Below, piece by piece: positions 432 to 23,867 of a stretch of DNA of 24,883 bases. The position numbers were made by a program, and so were the translations under genes. How positions within the stretch are numbered: position 1 is the stretch's first letter; every line of letters begins with the position of its first letter. The notes beneath the pieces are model-generated. The model saw only the letters and a program-made list of their open reading frames with translations. It was not told the origin of the DNA and ran no database searches. This stretch comes from a virus, in the IMG/VR virus record IMGVR_UViG_3300021335_000085, positions 1-24,883 of that record; one strand, written 5' to 3'.

Positions 432-434
432 AAA

Positions 435-519
435 CGGAGAGTAGAGGATTCGAACCTCTGGTGCTGTTACACACAAGACCTTTCCAAGATCTCACCATAA
501 ACCACTCGGACAACTCTCC
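435..519 (-). tRNA. tRNA-Ser(GGA)
   Basis: Class II tRNA. Acceptor GGAGAGT/ACTCTCC perfect, discriminator G. Anticodon stem AGATC/GGTCT with loop TTGGAAA (GGA), long variable arm, T-loop TTCGAAT. Confidence 0.92.
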
Positions 520-523
520 ATAT

Positions 524-626
524 GATAAGGGCGTCTTTTTTAAAGTCTGCTATGCTCGTTTAACTAGGGCACTATTTCAGCCTCCCGTCCCTTCAGACTA
601 ATGTTTGGTGGGACGAGACCCTTATC
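524..626 (-). ncRNA. Pseudoknotted structured RNA between two tRNA-Ser genes
   Basis: 103 bases that are not a tRNA. Minus strand: closing helix GATAAGGG (626-619) with CCCTTATC (531-524); directly stacked helix TCTCGTCCC (618-610) with GGGACGGGA (591-583), one G-T pair; and AGTCTG (599-594), in the loop of that helix, with CAGACT (549-544). The last pairing crosses the second helix, so the whole is an H-type pseudoknot closed by an outer stem. No protein frame fits. Position within the tRNA transcript suggests release by tRNA processing. It could belong to a known phage RNA class such as manA or wcaG RNAs; not testable here. Confidence 0.7.
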
Positions 627-630
627 AAGG

Positions 631-713
631 CGGAAGATGTTGGATTCGAACCAACGGAGGTTTTACCCTCACGGTTTAGCAAACCGCTGCATTAACCACT
701 CTGCCAATCTTCC
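631..713 (-). tRNA. tRNA-Ser(GCT)
   Basis: Class II tRNA. Acceptor GGAAGAT/ATCTTCC perfect, discriminator G. Anticodon stem GCGGT/ACCGT with loop TTGCTAA (GCT). Long variable arm and T-loop TTCGAAT are present. Confidence 0.93.
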
Positions 714-718
714 TTAAT

Positions 719-765
719 GTTACCTTGAACCATCCTAAGTGCGATTTAGGTTGCTTCAAGGCAAC
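719..765 (-). ncRNA. 47-base two-stem hairpin between tRNA genes
   Basis: On the minus strand an 11-base outer stem (GTTGCCTTGAA with TTCAAGGTAAC, one G-T pair), a symmetric four-by-four internal loop (GCAA/ATGG), and a five-base inner stem CCTAA/TTAGG capped by a seven-base loop (ATCGCAC). It has the size of an anticodon arm on a long helix but no D- or T-arm. No T-run follows, so it is not an ordinary terminator. Confidence 0.6.
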
Positions 766-767
766 AA

Positions 768-1225: not shown

Positions 1226-1279
1226 CATTTGAACTCTGAGGGGAGGTTGGTGGGCACTTAGGAAACTGTCACAAGCAAC

Positions 1280-1313
1280 AAAAAAGGGGAGGAAACTTTC
1301 GGTTTCTCTCCCC
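1280..1313 (-). terminator. Strong terminator upstream of the main tRNA cluster
   Basis: On the minus strand GGGGAGAGAAAC pairs with GTTTCCTCCCC (one bulged A) around a five-base loop, then six T residues. It would stop transcription coming from the small late ORF before the main tRNA array. Confidence 0.9.
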
Positions 1314-1342
1314 TTCTTATTTGCTTTTATGAATTAAACATC

Positions 1343-1444
1343 TTACATATGTCTATCCATATCCGCAAACAGGGGAGCACCCTCAATATGCCAATAGCGG
1401 CAATCAAGGTTACTAATCTGTTTTGTGGGCATTGGATAAGACAT
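1343..1444 (-). CDS. Small late ORF (33 aa)
   Basis: A 33-codon frame (MSYPMPTKQISNLDCRYWHI to ADMDRHM) placed between an exact late promoter and a strong terminator. Only a weak Shine-Dalgarno (TTAGG) is present 11 bases upstream. The spacing of promoter to ATG (20 bases) matches other late genes here. It could be a micro-protein or the transcript could act as an RNA; no homologue is recognised. Confidence 0.45.
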   Translation of the reverse strand: MSYPMPTKQISNLDCRYWHIEGAPLFADMDRHM

Positions 1445-1464
1445 TGTTTTCGACCTAAGTGTTT

Positions 1465-2376: not shown

Positions 2377-2592
2377 TCAAATAACATCAATTTCTTGATC
2401 TCCAAATCCTTTATCTTCAAGGCAAAGATATTCCATCTCGCCATCTTCCTGCTTAACATTAATCCATTCATCAAACTCTTCAGCAATTGCAACTGCATTA
2501 AACTGAGATTCAATGCCACCCCCATATAGTTGACGAATACGATCAATAGACCAATCACGAATTTGGACAACGGGTTCAATCTTCGCATTCAT
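2377..2592 (-). CDS. Conserved hypothetical protein (71 aa)
   Basis: Start at 2592 (MNAKIEPVVQIRDWSIDRIRQ). A longer frame reaching 2808 runs through the GIY-YIG gene in another frame and is rejected. The sequence has an N-terminal helix (SIDRIRQLYGGG), an acidic C-terminus and no cysteine pattern. The stop lies two bases before the ATG of the oxygenase gene, so the two are coupled. Confidence 0.75.
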   Translation of the reverse strand: MNAKIEPVVQIRDWSIDRIRQLYGGGIESQFNAVAIAEEFDEWINVKQEDGEMEYLCLEDKGFGDQEIDVI

Positions 2593-3031
2593 AGTAATCT
2601 TTTCGGAAGTATCTGTTGAGGATGTTGCTATTGTAGTATGCTGGTCCTCCTGTGTCAAGTCTTTCTGTAAGGACTCCGTTGATAAAGAGTTGTCTGGTTT
2701 CTTCGAAGTTTGTTTTTCCTTTTGTTTTATGGAGGGAGAGGATAGTCCGTCCAAATATCCCCTTTCCATAATTTTCCAAATCTTCTTTAAGTTCTGTACA
2801 AGACCCATAATAGTTTTTCCAGTCAGATTCTGATTTTACTTTTCGTTTTTTTCCTTTGGGCGTGCGAAACGACCAGAAATACTTTCTACCAATGTATTGT
2901 CGTTGGTTGGACTGATTGGTAATGAGATAAACAAAACCAAAGTTGTCCCCAATATCGCTAGAAGTAAAAACCTTGCCATTATAAATCCAAGGATTTTCAT
3001 AGGTTTCATCAGTAGTATAACTGCAACTCAT
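2576..3031 (-). CDS. GIY-YIG endonuclease, Seg-like (151 aa)
   Basis: A single-domain GIY-YIG nuclease. The first 30 residues are an extension; then FGFVYLITNQSNQRQYIGRK (31-50) gives the GIY-YIG core, with Arg49 or Arg56 as catalytic candidate. WKNYYGSCTELKEDL and NFEETRQLF (Glu111) complete the domain. No NUMOD modules are attached, which resembles the short Seg-type homing endonucleases of T4. It overlaps small genes at both ends (23 and 17 bases), so it may have entered by replacing intergenic space. A late-type promoter lies upstream. Confidence 0.85.
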   Translation of the reverse strand: MSCSYTTDETYENPWIYNGKVFTSSDIGDNFGFVYLITNQSNQRQYIGRKYFWSFRTPKGKKRKVKSESDWKNYYGSCTELKEDLENYGKGIFGRTILSLHKTKGKTNFEETRQLFINGVLTERLDTGGPAYYNSNILNRYFRKDYYECED

Positions 3032-4661: not shown

Positions 4662-5759
4662 TTATGGTTTTGTCCACCCATAACAAGATTTTCTTACACC
4701 ACGCAAAACTGCATCAAGACCACATTTAATATTATGTTCCTTTGAAAATTGTTTTATATTATCAAAGGTATGAATTTTTCCATCTGGACTTTTAATCGTG
4801 TAAATTTTTTTCTCTAGAATTGTTTCTGGTAAAGTCCATCCCTTATGTTGAATATATTTTCCACGCAAAACATTACCAACTCCTCCTAAATTTAAATCAT
4901 TTTTATCGCAAAATTCTTTAAAGTTTTCAAAGATAATTATTTCTCCATTTGGATTTTTCAATTTGTATATTTTTTTATCTTTTCTCTCTAGTGCTTTTTT
5001 TCTAATTTTTTCTCTTGTTTCTGGTGAATGGGTTTTACCATACATAGGATTGTTTTCACCAGAAGTTCGTTCACTTAAAATTTGACTACGAACTTTTAAG
5101 TATTCTTGTGAGAATATTCCAATACCTTCTTTTTTACATTTTTTTCCCCAAGCACTCCTTTCCTCATAAGATAATCCACAAATCCCAGTTTTATTATCTC
5201 TGTTTTTAGCACCACCTATTTTTCCAGCAGCACTTCTTTCCTCAAATCCAAATCCACATACTCCAAGACCAAGTTCTTTTGCTTTTTGTCCTGCTTTTTT
5301 ACCATTTTCTTTTTTTTGTTCTGGGGTTTGTGAAAATATCCCAAGTCCGTTTTCTTTTACATAATTTCCATTTTTTACTCGTTGTTCTTTTGTGAGAGAA
5401 CAAACTCCTCTTTTTAATTGTGCGTTATGGTTTCCAATTACTTTTCCATTCCTTCTTCTTGCTTTTCTAACACCTTCACTAGGAATATATCCACTTACAC
5501 CTTCACCACCATTAGTAAGATTGCGAAGAATACCAGTCCCCAAATCTTTTCTACCAAACATTAGGATATAAAGTTTTTCTAATTCAAATGCTTCTTGTTC
5601 TGTTAGATTTTTTTTAATTATTTTAATTCTGTTTTTATCTCTTGGAGGACTAACACTTTCCTTTTTCCCCTTTACAAAGCATCTATCATCTTTACCTTTT
5701 CCAATATAATATGGACTCTTATCTTCACGAAGATAAGAATAAACATAAAAATTATTCAT
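4662..5759 (-). CDS. GIY-YIG homing endonuclease with repeated modules (365 aa), nrdB-proximal
   Basis: Start at 5759 (MNNFYVYSYLRED); a 14-residue upstream extension overlaps the previous gene. GIY-YIG domain: FYVYSYL (4-10), PYYIGKGKDDRCF (16-28, Arg26), the helical TEQEAFELEKLYI with Glu59/Glu61, and NLTNGGEG (80-87). About five tandem units of 22-26 residues follow (118-233), each built around G(V/I)(C/F)(S/G) and a helix such as TPEQKKENGKKAG. A NUMOD3 motif (GENNPMYGKTHSPETREK, 234-251) and two NUMOD1-like C-terminal repeats (264-310, 318-365, each with VLRG and GWT) complete it. It is the second of two endonucleases between nrdA and nrdB. Confidence 0.92.
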   Translation of the reverse strand: MNNFYVYSYLREDKSPYYIGKGKDDRCFVKGKKESVSPPRDKNRIKIIKKNLTEQEAFELEKLYILMFGRKDLGTGILRNLTNGGEGVSGYIPSEGVRKARRRNGKVIGNHNAQLKRGVCSLTKEQRVKNGNYVKENGLGIFSQTPEQKKENGKKAGQKAKELGLGVCGFGFEERSAAGKIGGAKNRDNKTGICGLSYEERSAWGKKCKKEGIGIFSQEYLKVRSQILSERTSGENNPMYGKTHSPETREKIRKKALERKDKKIYKLKNPNGEIIIFENFKEFCDKNDLNLGGVGNVLRGKYIQHKGWTLPETILEKKIYTIKSPDGKIHTFDNIKQFSKEHNIKCGLDAVLRGVRKSCYGWTKP

Positions 5760-6429
5760 AACTCCACTTGTATCCTTTGCAGTGTTTAAATTTTCCTTCA
5801 CAAGTATATTTGATATTAGAAGGAGTTGTTCCTACAAATTTAGAAGCATCACTAATAGATTGAAACTCTCTTAAAAAGTTTCCTTCAATATCATACTGAA
5901 ATACTTTGGTTCTTTTTACATTTGGATTATTTTTGAGTGTTTGAGATGTTTTACTTTTGCTTTCTTCTTTGTGCGATTTTCCAGCAAATCCACAAGGAGA
6001 TGGTTTCCCTTTTCTCATTTTACTCCAGTTCTTCTTTTGTTCCTCGGTATGTGTTTGATTATAGAATGGATTTTCTTCTCCAAGAAATTTACCTTTTCTT
6101 TTTGATGATAGAAGTTTCTTTGTTTCTTCTGTATGAGAATATCCAAGAATTCCACCATCACCACCAAGAGTTTGGTTATATTCTGGTTTTAATGAAGAAA
6201 TCCATTCAATTTCTTTTTCACCAAGAATATTAACATCACATCTATCTAATTCCTCAATAATAAAATTATCCTCACCATACTTTCTTAATGCTTTATGGAA
6301 GTAAGTTGTTGAACCATTTTTAGAAGCATACAAGTGGTTATAAAATCTTGTTGATAAAGATTTTATAGTTTTACCGACATATTTTTTATTATTAATTTTA
6401 TTAGTTATTAGATAGATGCGACCCGACAT
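5752..6429 (-). CDS. GIY-YIG homing endonuclease (225 aa), nrdA-proximal
   Basis: GIY-YIG catalytic domain at the N-terminus: GRIYLITNKINNKKYVGK (3-20), Arg28, the acidic LGEKEIEWI patch (69-77, catalytic Glu here) and YNQTLGG (Asn85). NUMOD3-like DNA-binding repeats follow (GEENPFYNQTHT near 117-128, GFAGKSHK), and the C-terminal 50 residues are a NUMOD1/helix-turn-helix type module (KVFQYDIEGNFLREF...GYKWSYE). The layout is I-TevI-like, free-standing rather than in an intron. Inserted between nrdA and nrdB, it probably cuts near that junction in phages lacking it. It has its own late promoter and overlaps the second endonuclease by eight bases. Confidence 0.93.
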   Translation of the reverse strand: MSGRIYLITNKINNKKYVGKTIKSLSTRFYNHLYASKNGSTTYFHKALRKYGEDNFIIEELDRCDVNILGEKEIEWISSLKPEYNQTLGGDGGILGYSHTEETKKLLSSKRKGKFLGEENPFYNQTHTEEQKKNWSKMRKGKPSPCGFAGKSHKEESKSKTSQTLKNNPNVKRTKVFQYDIEGNFLREFQSISDASKFVGTTPSNIKYTCEGKFKHCKGYKWSYE

Positions 6430-21779: not shown

Positions 21780-22239
21780 AACTAAATTCCTTTCGTGCAA
21801 TTTCATCCAATTGTAGCATCACTTCCTCGGTGAAGTAAACCTCAGGTTCCTTAAGAATCTGCTTGGCATAAATTTTCTTACCATTCATTTCATAACGACC
21901 GGCAACATTCTTCCAGAGACCGCCCAGTTCACCGAGTTCAAGAAGACCGTAATATCGATCAAGACCACGCTCATCATAATAAAGACGTATTTCCACATCT
22001 TTGTTCTCCTTACTCAAACGCGACTTAGCAGTCTTAGCTTTGATAATATTGCCGACCACTTCTGTTCCATCTTTTTCTTTCTTTTTGCTGAGATAAATGA
22101 TTGAAGACGCTGCGTACTTGAGTCCAGAGTTGTGAGAAACAATACCACTATGAAGTATGTAATGATGCTCCCCCTTAACCGTAATATCGTATACTTTTTC
22201 TGTTTCAACTTTTTTGATACTCTTTACAATTTGATCCAT
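21766..22239 (-). CDS. uvsX: Split-intein C half fused to UvsX C-terminal fragment
   Basis: Second half of the fractured uvsX gene. Residues 1-37 are an intein C half: block F is KVYDITVKGEHHYIL, and block G is SGIVSHN ending in Asn37, followed by Ser38 as the first residue of the C-extein. Residues 38-157 (SGLKYAASSIIYLS onward) are the C-terminal part of UvsX, matching the region after the GGNALKFYAS-type sequence of RecA. The start is set by a perfect Shine-Dalgarno AGGAGGT five bases upstream and by the length typical for intein C halves (36-40 residues). It overlaps the HNH gene by 35 bases and the gp41 start by 14 bases. With the N precursor it should splice to a 335-aa recombinase. Confidence 0.93.
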   Translation of the reverse strand: MDQIVKSIKKVETEKVYDITVKGEHHYILHSGIVSHNSGLKYAASSIIYLSKKKEKDGTEVVGNIIKAKTAKSRLSKENKDVEIRLYYDERGLDRYYGLLELGELGGLWKNVAGRYEMNGKKIYAKQILKEPEVYFTEEVMLQLDEIARKEFSYGEG

Positions 22240-22873
22240 GCCACCTCCTATACATTGGGTATGTTATTTGTTTCTGACAGTGCTCACAGACAACCTGCCT
22301 GTGTTTTTTTCCATAACGAGGAGACTTCTCCCCCCTTCTTTCAGATGCCAATTCCGAAAGAAATTTTTTTGTTTGTTCTGAGTGTGTTTTGTTGAAGAAT
22401 GGATTAGACTCTCCACACATCTTTTCACTCATCATTTTTCTATGTTCTGGAGAAGAAACGATTTGTTTATGTTTCTCACGAACAGAAGGATTGAACATTG
22501 GATTATTTTGTCCATAATGTCCTTTCCCATAAAATGGATTATTCTCACCTGAAGTTAAATGAGAATAACTTCTCCTTATTCTATCATAAGAATTTAAATT
22601 TTTACACCTAACTCCATTACTATTACTAGAGCACATACGATAAAAAGCATAACACATTTTTTTCTTATACTTTCCATCAACCATCTTCAATAATAAATGA
22701 TGACAAACGAAATGTTCTCTTGGAGTTAAATTTACTAAATTATCTTTTGTATTTTTACCTCCAAATGATTTAGGAATGATGTGGTGTTTTTCTGTAATGT
22801 CGTTTATTTCTCTTTCCTTTGCTCTTTCTATAATACGAAAGTAACAACTTGTATATTTATTTTTTATAAACAT
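22205..22873 (-). CDS. Free-standing HNH homing endonuclease with NUMOD3 repeats, inside split uvsX
   Basis: A 222-aa HNH-family endonuclease gene between the two halves of uvsX, in a third reading frame. The HNH motif is at 29-58: KHHIIPKSFGG (His30/His31), then NLVNLTPREH with Glu53/His54, and His58. NUMOD3-type DNA-binding repeats follow (GENNPFYGK near 109-117, GQNNPMF near 121-127, GESNPFFNKTHS near 154-165, GEKSPRYGK near 181-189). A C-terminal Cys2-His-Cys zinc motif (Cys196, Cys199, His212, Cys216) ends the protein. It likely cuts intein-less uvsX alleles and so spreads the whole insert; this is inferred from family and position. Its last 35 bases overlap the start of the intein C-half gene. 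A late-type promoter inside a hairpin lies just upstream. Confidence 0.9.
   Translation of the reverse strand: MFIKNKYTSCYFRIIERAKEREINDITEKHHIIPKSFGGKNTKDNLVNLTPREHFVCHHLLLKMVDGKYKKKMCYAFYRMCSSNSNGVRCKNLNSYDRIRRSYSHLTSGENNPFYGKGHYGQNNPMFNPSVREKHKQIVSSPEHRKMMSEKMCGESNPFFNKTHSEQTKKFLSELASERRGEKSPRYGKKHRQVVCEHCQKQITYPMYRRWHGSNCKEYQKS
22243..22249 (-). promoter_or_regulatory. Strong ribosome binding site for the intein C half
   Basis: AGGAGGT on the minus strand, four to five bases before the ATG at 22239. It lies within the 3' coding end of the HNH gene. It shows that the intein C half is translated from its own start rather than by readthrough, which supports a true split intein. Confidence 0.85.
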
Positions 22874-22881
22874 TAGGTTCT

Positions 22882-22906
22882 GGTCTTAAGTATTACTATT
22901 TAGACC
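22882..22906 (-). promoter_or_regulatory. Hairpin plus late-type promoter TCTAAATA in front of the HNH gene
   Basis: On the minus strand GGTCTAA (22906-22900) can pair with TTAAGACC (22889-22882) with one bulged base, around a ten-base loop. The sequence TCTAAATA (22904-22897), one mismatch from the T4 late consensus, spans the 5' arm and loop. A transcript starting about six bases downstream would lack the 5' arm, so only read-through RNA could form the hairpin. The promoter is 23 bases from the HNH ATG, like other late promoters here. Confidence 0.5.
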
Positions 22907-23867
22907 CAATATATTTTATTCCATTACGAACCTCTTCTATTGAAATTGTTGGAATGGATTTAATTTTATCTCCAGGTAAGAGATCAATTACTCTTTTCCA
23001 CTCATAACCATTTTCAGTATCCACTAAAAATTTATGGTCCGCACTACACTTAACAATTTCTCCATTTTCAAGTTCCATCTCAAATACTTCTTTGTCATCA
23101 AAACAAAAAGTATTAGTAACATAAGAGTATCCAAACATAGTTCTTACTTTATCTCCAATTTGAATAGATTCAATAGGAACAGAACCTTTTACTGTTTGGA
23201 TTTTGGTTCCAGCAACCAAGCAACCACCACCCATTTCCTTTGTAGGAACATAAGCTCCGATAACATCGTAGGTATGATTAGTAACGATCATTGGAATTTT
23301 TGCTTGACCAAGTTTAAGAGTAAGCATTCGGAATGCACCCTTTACAAGTTGAGATTTGGTCATATCCCTAACTTGCTTATCATTCAGAGCATCAGTAATC
23401 TCCTTCTCAGTCGAAAGCATACCCAGAGAGTCTAGAACAAACATACAAGGTTTGCGTTCCTCTTCTGGTTTCTTAAGATATATATCTACTGCCTTAAGTG
23501 CTTTACTGCGGAAGTCCTCAATAGTTACAACATTAACCACTACAAGACGAGCGGTATCAACACCCCTAGACTCAAGTAAGGATTTGGTAATAGCTGCCTC
23601 AGAATCAAAATAGAGACAATAACCATCGGGATTGGAATCAAGAAAATTCTTAACAACGGCGAGACTGAAGAAAGTCTTTCCAGTAGAAGACTCTCCAGCA
23701 ATAGCAGTAATCTTATTCCCAGATACACCACCAAATACACTACCTGAAACCAATGCATTAAAAATGTACGAACCTGTGTCCACATATGTTTCAGTCTCAT
23801 CAATATCTGATGCAAGTTTGGTATAGTCATCACCAATCTCTTTTACAATATCTTTTAAAAAATCCAT
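22896..23867 (-). CDS. uvsX: UvsX recombinase N-terminal fragment fused to split-intein N half
   Basis: RecA-family strand-exchange protein of T4-like phages, here only its N-terminal part (residues 1-215), followed in frame by an intein N half (216-323) and a stop. Walker A is GESSTGKT at 58-65; Walker B is CMFVLDS with Asp146. The recombinase part ends in MGGG, the conserved spot just after the DNA-binding L2 loop region. The intein starts with Cys216 (CLVAGTKI, block A) and has block B near 270-280 with SADHKF, including His278. The frame stops at TAG about 108 residues into the intein, which resembles known naturally split inteins. No endonuclease domain is fused. The rest of the intein and UvsX are encoded by the frame at 21766-22239, so protein trans-splicing is expected to give a 335-aa UvsX. 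Confidence 0.93.
   Translation of the reverse strand: MDFLKDIVKEIGDDYTKLASDIDETETYVDTGSYIFNALVSGSVFGGVSGNKITAIAGESSTGKTFFSLAVVKNFLDSNPDGYCLYFDSEAAITKSLLESRGVDTARLVVVNVVTIEDFRSKALKAVDIYLKKPEEERKPCMFVLDSLGMLSTEKEITDALNDKQVRDMTKSQLVKGAFRMLTLKLGQAKIPMIVTNHTYDVIGAYVPTKEMGGGCLVAGTKIQTVKGSVPIESIQIGDKVRTMFGYSYVTNTFCFDDKEVFEMELENGEIVKCSADHKFLVDTENGYEWKRVIDLLPGDKIKSIPTISIEEVRNGIKYIGSK

Follow-up and report, generated by a model that had tools for sequence, protein, structure and literature searches.

A predicted stem-closed pseudoknot RNA in the tRNA array of a T4-like cyanophage

The window, the whole 24,883-nt stretch of DNA analysed here (IMG/VR record IMGVR_UViG_3300021335_000085), is part of a T4-like cyanophage genome and carries protein genes and a tRNA array. 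The protein genes on its minus strand include UvsX with an intein, gp41, NrdA, NrdB and a 2OG oxygenase, and on the same strand ARAGORN and Rfam identify 15 complete tRNA genes and one cut by the window edge. Simple hairpins fill other inter-tRNA spacers. The spacer between tRNA-Ser(GCT) and tRNA-Ser(GGA) is filled almost end to end by a structured RNA at positions 524-626, which leaves a linker of about 2 nt on its upstream side and one of 3-4 nt on its downstream side. In the phage S-PM2 the same two serine tRNAs are adjacent, with no insert between them.

An initial annotation, made from the letters of the sequence, had described three helices of 8, 9 and 6 bp at this position, with a crossing pair that forms an H-type pseudoknot inside an outer closing stem. 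All three helices and the crossing are present exactly, on the minus strand (Table 1), in the order GATAAGGG, TCTCGTCCC, ACCAAACATT, AGTCTG, AA, GGGACGGGA, GGC TGAAATAGT GCC, CTAGTTAAACGAGCATAG, CAGACT, TTAAAAAAGACG, CCCTTATC. A further helix had been missed: the hairpin P4, GGC(TGAAATAGT)GCC, which is GGG/CCC in homologues and lost in one of them. The gapless stacking of P1 on P2 holds in part, as their 5' strands are contiguous; the 3' strands lie 51 nt apart, and a continuous stack is what we infer. The element was also rightly distinguished from a tRNA, since neither ARAGORN nor Rfam places one there although both call the tRNAs on either side, and it has no reading frame of note, the overlapping ORFs being unremarkable and at most 54 aa long.

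Table 1 Parts of the structured RNA and its flanking tRNA genes, with sequences as read on the minus strand
Feature	Sequence	Position	Strand	Remarks
Whole structured RNA		524..626	-	About 103 nt; between tRNA-Ser(GCT) and tRNA-Ser(GGA)
P1, 5' strand	GATAAGGG	619..626	-	8 bp; invariant in all homologues; homology ends here
P1, 3' strand	CCCTTATC	524..531	-	Invariant
P2, 5' strand	TCTCGTCCC	610..618	-	9 bp; homologues differ on both sides in 4/9 pairs
P2, 3' strand	GGGACGGGA	583..591	-	Partner of 610..618
L1, conserved loop	ACCAAACATT	600..609	-	1/10 columns variable
PK, 5' strand	AGTCTG	594..599	-	Inside the P2 loop; pairs with 544-549; 6 bp
PK, 3' strand	CAGACT	544..549	-	Crosses P2
P4 hairpin	GGC-TGAAATAGT-GCC	568..582	-	3 bp; compensated closing pair and invariant loop; missing from L048
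L3, conserved core	TTAAACGASCMWAG	550..567	-	Crosses P2; 3/18 columns variable
3' joining strand	TTAAAAAAGACG	532..543	-	Joins PK to P1; with the preceding T gives the conserved TTTAAA
tRNA-Ser (GCT)		629..713	-	Flank, upstream in transcription; ARAGORN, Rfam
tRNA-Ser (GGA)		434..520	-	Flank, downstream in transcription; ARAGORN, Rfam

The fold was compared with chance by shuffling. Its nested part has an MFE z-score of -3.3. An H-type pseudoknot of equally good stacking energy arose in 6 of 1000 dinucleotide shuffles, the pseudoknot energetics in this comparison being an approximation, and an 8-bp terminal stem arose in 1 of 1000. For a stretch that had been picked by hand, these results alone are suggestive and not decisive, and homologues were therefore sought.

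IMG/VR tRNA arrays were pulled by tRNA-Ser patterns and compared with the 524-626 element. Contig L064 contains a full-length relative, 81% identical over 103 nt, and a partial match in contig L048 extends to a full copy. A pattern built on the conserved loops yielded four further contigs that carry one and the same sequence (L185, L196, L197 and L207). This gives three further distinct homologues in six IMG/VR contigs besides the window, all inside T4-like cyanophage tRNA arrays, with RNAs of 89-103 nt; each of the six records, searched whole, holds a single copy. The gp41 proteins of the member phages are 66-81% identical to that of the window. The initial annotation had considered a complex RNA in a tRNA array to be rare, which is true of this RNA family but not of such arrays in general, as other structured elements occupy the tRNA spacers of related cyanophages.

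Wider searches added no members. BLASTN of the 524-626 element or of the L048 copy against 50,697 phage records found no relative, and a covariance model, applied to 159 sources and to the full length of 78 phage records, recovered no members beyond those known. A 23-bit match of the model at L263 was rejected, as there are no tRNAs around it and it misses the conserved loop motifs; among the weak matches of 14-16 bits, also rejected, some overlap tRNA-Tyr genes. Matches to the loose pattern GTCTGAAGGGAC...GCAGAC were all due to chance. Outside the known members, matches to TTAAACGANNNNAGCNNACTTT lack the rest of the element and mostly represent one recurring sequence family, and matches to the P1 strands in viral contigs have an unrelated interior and no tRNAs nearby. 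A search of genome contigs returned two chance matches, in Shewanella and in a Rhodospirillaceae MAG.

To assess covariation, the four distinct sequences, three of which are mutually close (92-98% over aligned columns), were placed in one alignment (A1). Across P1, P2, PK and P4, 98% of the pair cells are standard pairs and six pairs are changed on both sides; none of 500 shuffles reached either this count or the 98%. When the 3' partner was slid by 1-3 columns, the number of pairs changed on both sides dropped to 0-1. P2 contributes four of the six, with one mismatch in L064 and L185. PK contributes one (C-G to G-C), together with a one-sided change (U-A to U-G), and is paired in 24/24 cells. 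Taken alone, the two-sided change in PK is matched by 130 of 500 shuffles, and on its own the helix would be modest evidence; its weight comes from the full pairing of all four sequences, compared with pairing in 4-75% of cells for the slid versions. P4 contributes the last (GGC/GCC to GGG/CCC), and its absence from L048 indicates that it is dispensable. P1 is invariant across the homologues and its pairing is supported by complementarity alone; as it never varies, covariation speaks neither for nor against it. The compensatory changes in homologues, whose absence the initial annotation had named as a refutation, are therefore found in P2 and PK, the two crossing helices that constitute the H-type pseudoknot, with P1 uninformative either way. 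These six compensated pairs in four sequences are the strongest support for the predicted fold.

Five of the pair cells are G-U in the minus-strand reading but would turn into A-C mismatches if the plus strand were transcribed, indicating that the RNA is made on the strand of the tRNAs. Variable columns make up 9/18 of P2, against far fewer in L1, L3 and the P4 loop (0/9 in the last; Table 1), and the loops are this well conserved although the gp41 proteins of the member phages share only 66-81% identity with that of the window. Conserved loops combined with a compensated helix are, as judged from the alignment, the pattern of a functional RNA and not of a passive spacer. On this comparative evidence, 524-626 is a real and new pseudoknotted non-coding RNA.

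Known RNA families were then considered. At the gathering threshold, Rfam found nothing besides tRNA in the whole window, and no family matched 515-640 at E<=10. No tmRNA was found by ARAGORN or matched in Rfam. The only Rfam match of the L048 copy was a chance one, to a microRNA model on the opposite strand. The RNAs manA (RF01745) and wcaG (RF01761), proposed earlier as the candidates to compare, match neither the window copy nor the L048 homologue at E<=10. Both are structured RNAs of T4-like cyanophages, reported from putative 5' UTRs of protein-coding genes (PMC2864571), and phage S-CREM1 has both (PMC9964418); the 524-626 RNA, in contrast, lies in a tRNA array. The GOLLD and ROOL RNAs resemble it in being phage or prophage non-coding RNAs that are often near tRNA islands, with function unknown, and ROOL has multiple predicted pseudoknots (PMC12286853). 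They are very large, many GOLLD RNAs exceeding 800 nt (PMC12286853), compared with 89-103 nt here, and neither Rfam model matches the 524-626 RNA.

The closest precedent for the setting is provided by phage T4, whose rnaC (139 nt) and rnaD (119 nt), also called species 1 and 2, are small stable RNAs in the T4 tRNA cluster; in the T4 annotation rnaD lies 1 nt from tRNA-Arg and rnaC 6 nt further. Position in a tRNA cluster and small size are common to both systems. However, rnaC has a tRNA-like T-arm sequence, unlike the 524-626 RNA, and neither T4 RNA gave a comparable P1-closed pseudoknot in single-sequence folding, which models nested pairs only. The covariance model of the 524-626 RNA (R1) found nothing in T4 69500-73500 up to E=10. 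Since rnaC and rnaD are described and have no Rfam match either, absence from Rfam does not amount to absence from the literature; our literature search found no paper on RNAs with pseudoknots in the tRNA arrays of cyanophages. ToxI-type RNA antitoxins are shorter and occur as tandem repeats. They offer an analogy only: in the course of phage infection, these compact pseudoknots act in trans by binding a protein (PMC5772629).

The element behaves as a unit with defined edges. Homology starts and stops at P1 in four contexts in which the flanking tRNAs differ, with a conserved margin of TT before P1 and, in the three relatives only, AACTT after it. In the window the RNA occupies the Ser-GCT|Ser-GGA slot; in the relatives it follows Ile and precedes either Ser-GCT or a tRNA-like element. 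In most members a few nucleotides link the RNA to the adjoining tRNAs, and in L048 an extra short hairpin follows the upstream tRNA. Such a change of slots, together with an invariant P1 that extends to 10 bp in the relatives, would also suit a mobile, MITE-like DNA unit, in which P1 would simply be the perfect inverted repeat at its termini (TTGATAAGGG...CCCTTATCAA) and the internal fold would be secondary. We regard this as very improbable. Each searched record has a single copy, no target-site duplication was seen, and the internal covariation and strand-specific wobble pairs point to selection at the RNA level. Where this inverted repeat occurs elsewhere in viral contigs, its arms flank unrelated sequence without tRNAs, so that a DNA-level mobile repeat does not account for the conservation.

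The reading we favour, and hold to be somewhat probable, is that 524-626 encodes a small stable RNA that is freed by tRNA-processing enzymes and acts in trans through its conserved loops. The RNA would take one tRNA slot of a polycistronic tRNA transcript, being presumably co-transcribed with the tRNAs. Judging from its position, it could be released by RNase P acting at the 5' end of the downstream tRNA and by the enzymes that mature the 3' end of the upstream one; as the linkers are only a few nucleotides long, the product of these cuts would be compact, roughly 108 nt in length, with its ends closed by P1, in parallel to the stable RNAs C and D beside the T4 tRNAs. During infection, the loops that the pseudoknot displays (L1, L3 and that of P4) might then bind in trans to a protein or an RNA, of either the host or the phage. 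A host-factor mimic, as suggested by the initial annotation, would be compatible with the observations. A host translation or RNA-decay factor would be our guess at the target, and the trans role itself is suggested by the conservation of the loops.

The main rival to a trans-acting RNA is a spacer that acts in cis, a stable fold that prevents joint misfolding of neighbouring tRNAs, or that directs or obstructs ribonucleases while the array matures, and has no role once excised. We give it a smaller but appreciable chance. It would suit the strict conservation of P1, the near end-to-end occupation of the spacer, the use of simple hairpins in other inter-tRNA spacers and the fact that S-PM2 manages without the element. 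However, where a plain hairpin suffices elsewhere in the array, a cis spacer has no need for the conserved single-stranded ACCAAACAU, UGAAAUAGU and UUAAACGA beside a compensated P2, and the unit has changed slots with its loops intact.

Two catalytic or regulatory readings, both raised by the initial annotation, are less likely than the cis-acting spacer. A small pseudoknotted RNA with conserved loops, in a transcript that needs cuts, could be an undescribed self-cleaving ribozyme that helps to separate the tRNAs. The fold is compatible with this, yet we consider it improbable: none of the Rfam self-cleaving ribozymes (hammerhead, HDV, twister, pistol, hatchet and others) matches at E<=10, the tRNA enzymes already cut on both sides, and no cleavage site could be placed. 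The pistol and HDV topologies, compared by eye and from general knowledge, were rejected because their helix order does not fit. A riboswitch or other ligand-sensing cis element like manA or wcaG, which do occur in T4-like cyanophages (PMC2864571), would likewise account for a pseudoknot with conserved loops, but is hardly credible here. In the window the RNA is followed by the gene for tRNA-Ser(GGA), and in the homologues by a tRNA or a tRNA-like element; because the RNA has no reading frame downstream, lies between two tRNA genes in the window and has no Rfam match, a cis riboswitch is unlikely. No expression platform was seen either, the known members consistently lacking a downstream coding gene or terminator switch.

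A second stem-closed H-type pseudoknot was found in the Asp|Glu spacer of the cultured phage S-CREM1 (L023, 3352-3441, plus strand) and of contig L035 (1591-1680, minus strand). Its outer stems, GGGAGGG/CCCTCCC and TCTTGC/GCGAGA, enclose a pair of crossing helices, which in S-CREM1 are GCAAGTC/GACTTGT and GGAGTAG/CTACTTC. All 27 pairs are formed in both sequences, and five are changed on both sides, four of them in the crossing helices; slid controls gave 0-1, and 16 of 500 shuffles reached the observed value in this comparison of two sequences. Both this RNA and that at 524-626 are H-type pseudoknots closed by a stem and lie between tRNA genes of T4-like cyanophages, but the two have no sequence similarity and a different helix order, and they were treated as separate families. 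The non-tRNA RNAs listed in the S-CREM1 paper are abiF, wcaG, manA and glnA only (PMC9964418).

Because this second, unrelated family was found, a broader reading is kept open, tentatively and with some doubt: the large tRNA arrays of T4-like cyanophages may be a habitat of several unrelated small pseudoknotted RNA families, including these two and further structured candidates in other spacers. Freed by tRNA processing, such RNAs would work in trans to the detriment of the host, for instance by decoying ribonucleases, translation factors or defence proteins. Attention to phage tRNA arrays is usually confined to the tRNAs themselves. A covariation-supported, slot-changing pseudoknot RNA without an Rfam family implies that they also carry dedicated structured RNAs, as T4 rnaC and rnaD and GOLLD and ROOL had hinted before. 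The consensus and covariance model make the 524-626 family searchable, and the presence of the second family in a cultured phage opens the role of such RNAs to testing.

Several minor observations were made on neighbouring spacers. The interior of the Asp|Glu element differs in L106, L071, L048, L114 and L154, with a possible GGATT/AATCC crossed by TACGAAG/CTTCGTG, and in L149 and L072 it appears to be a plain hairpin. Directly upstream of the Asp|Glu RNA in S-CREM1 (L023 3296-3351) is a conserved stretch that could form a pseudoknot, with ACGTCAT/ATGACGT crossed by CCAGTTA/TAACTGG, and that has relatives in L106, L071, L052, L096, L048, L072, L114, L154, L149 and L035. When covariation was attempted on this CCAGTT/AACTGG pseudoknot, the register of helix 1 was found to shift between subgroups. 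The Ile|Phe spacer of L027 (5844-6006, minus strand) is 163 nt long and has a 9-bp outer stem, GGGTTGCTG/CAGCAACCC, with possible crossing pairs CCGAG/CTCGG and GAAGT..GGGG/CCCC..ACTTC.

A tRNA-like element of 95-96 nt, uncalled by ARAGORN, occupies the Ser-GCT|Ser-GGA spacer of L031, L036, L042, L044, L051, L058, L062 and part of L030, and occurs also at about 3600-3690 of L023 and after the 524-626-type RNA in L185. It has an acceptor stem and two apparent T-arms (GGCGG-TTCGATT-CCGTC and GGTGG-TTCGATT-CCACC), and no ordinary anticodon arm was seen in it; T4 rnaC likewise has a T-arm-like sequence. A conserved insert of 85-87 nt, GGACTCCAGCAAGGTGCTTGCTAGGATATAAAAGACTGACGCC...GGTCAGCGTCC, follows the Ser tRNA in L025, L055, L056, L057, L128 and L154, at or beside the slot of the window RNA, and is absent from L024 and L026.

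Within the window, the hairpin of the Ile|Ser spacer (714-766, minus strand) contains TTGAAGCAACCTAAATCGCACTTAGG, near-identical in S-CREM1 and L024-L027, a conservation beyond what a spacer hairpin needs. Upstream of tRNA-Lys (window about 1265-1450, minus strand; L022 1590-1935; L002 4425-4800), a short possible reading frame ending DCRYWHI...DxxM is followed by a terminator-like hairpin with a T run and then by a conserved stretch. This arrangement is common to the window, S-PM2 and L002, the last having an extra small ORF that is HNH-like by eye. Homing elements lie near the tRNA array of the window, as segB does in T4. Minus-strand candidates are a SegE-like GIY-YIG endonuclease (2576-3031), a NUMOD3-containing ORF with an adjacent ORF between NrdB and NrdA (4662-6429), and UvsX split by its intein, followed by an ORF resembling an endonuclease (22205-23867).
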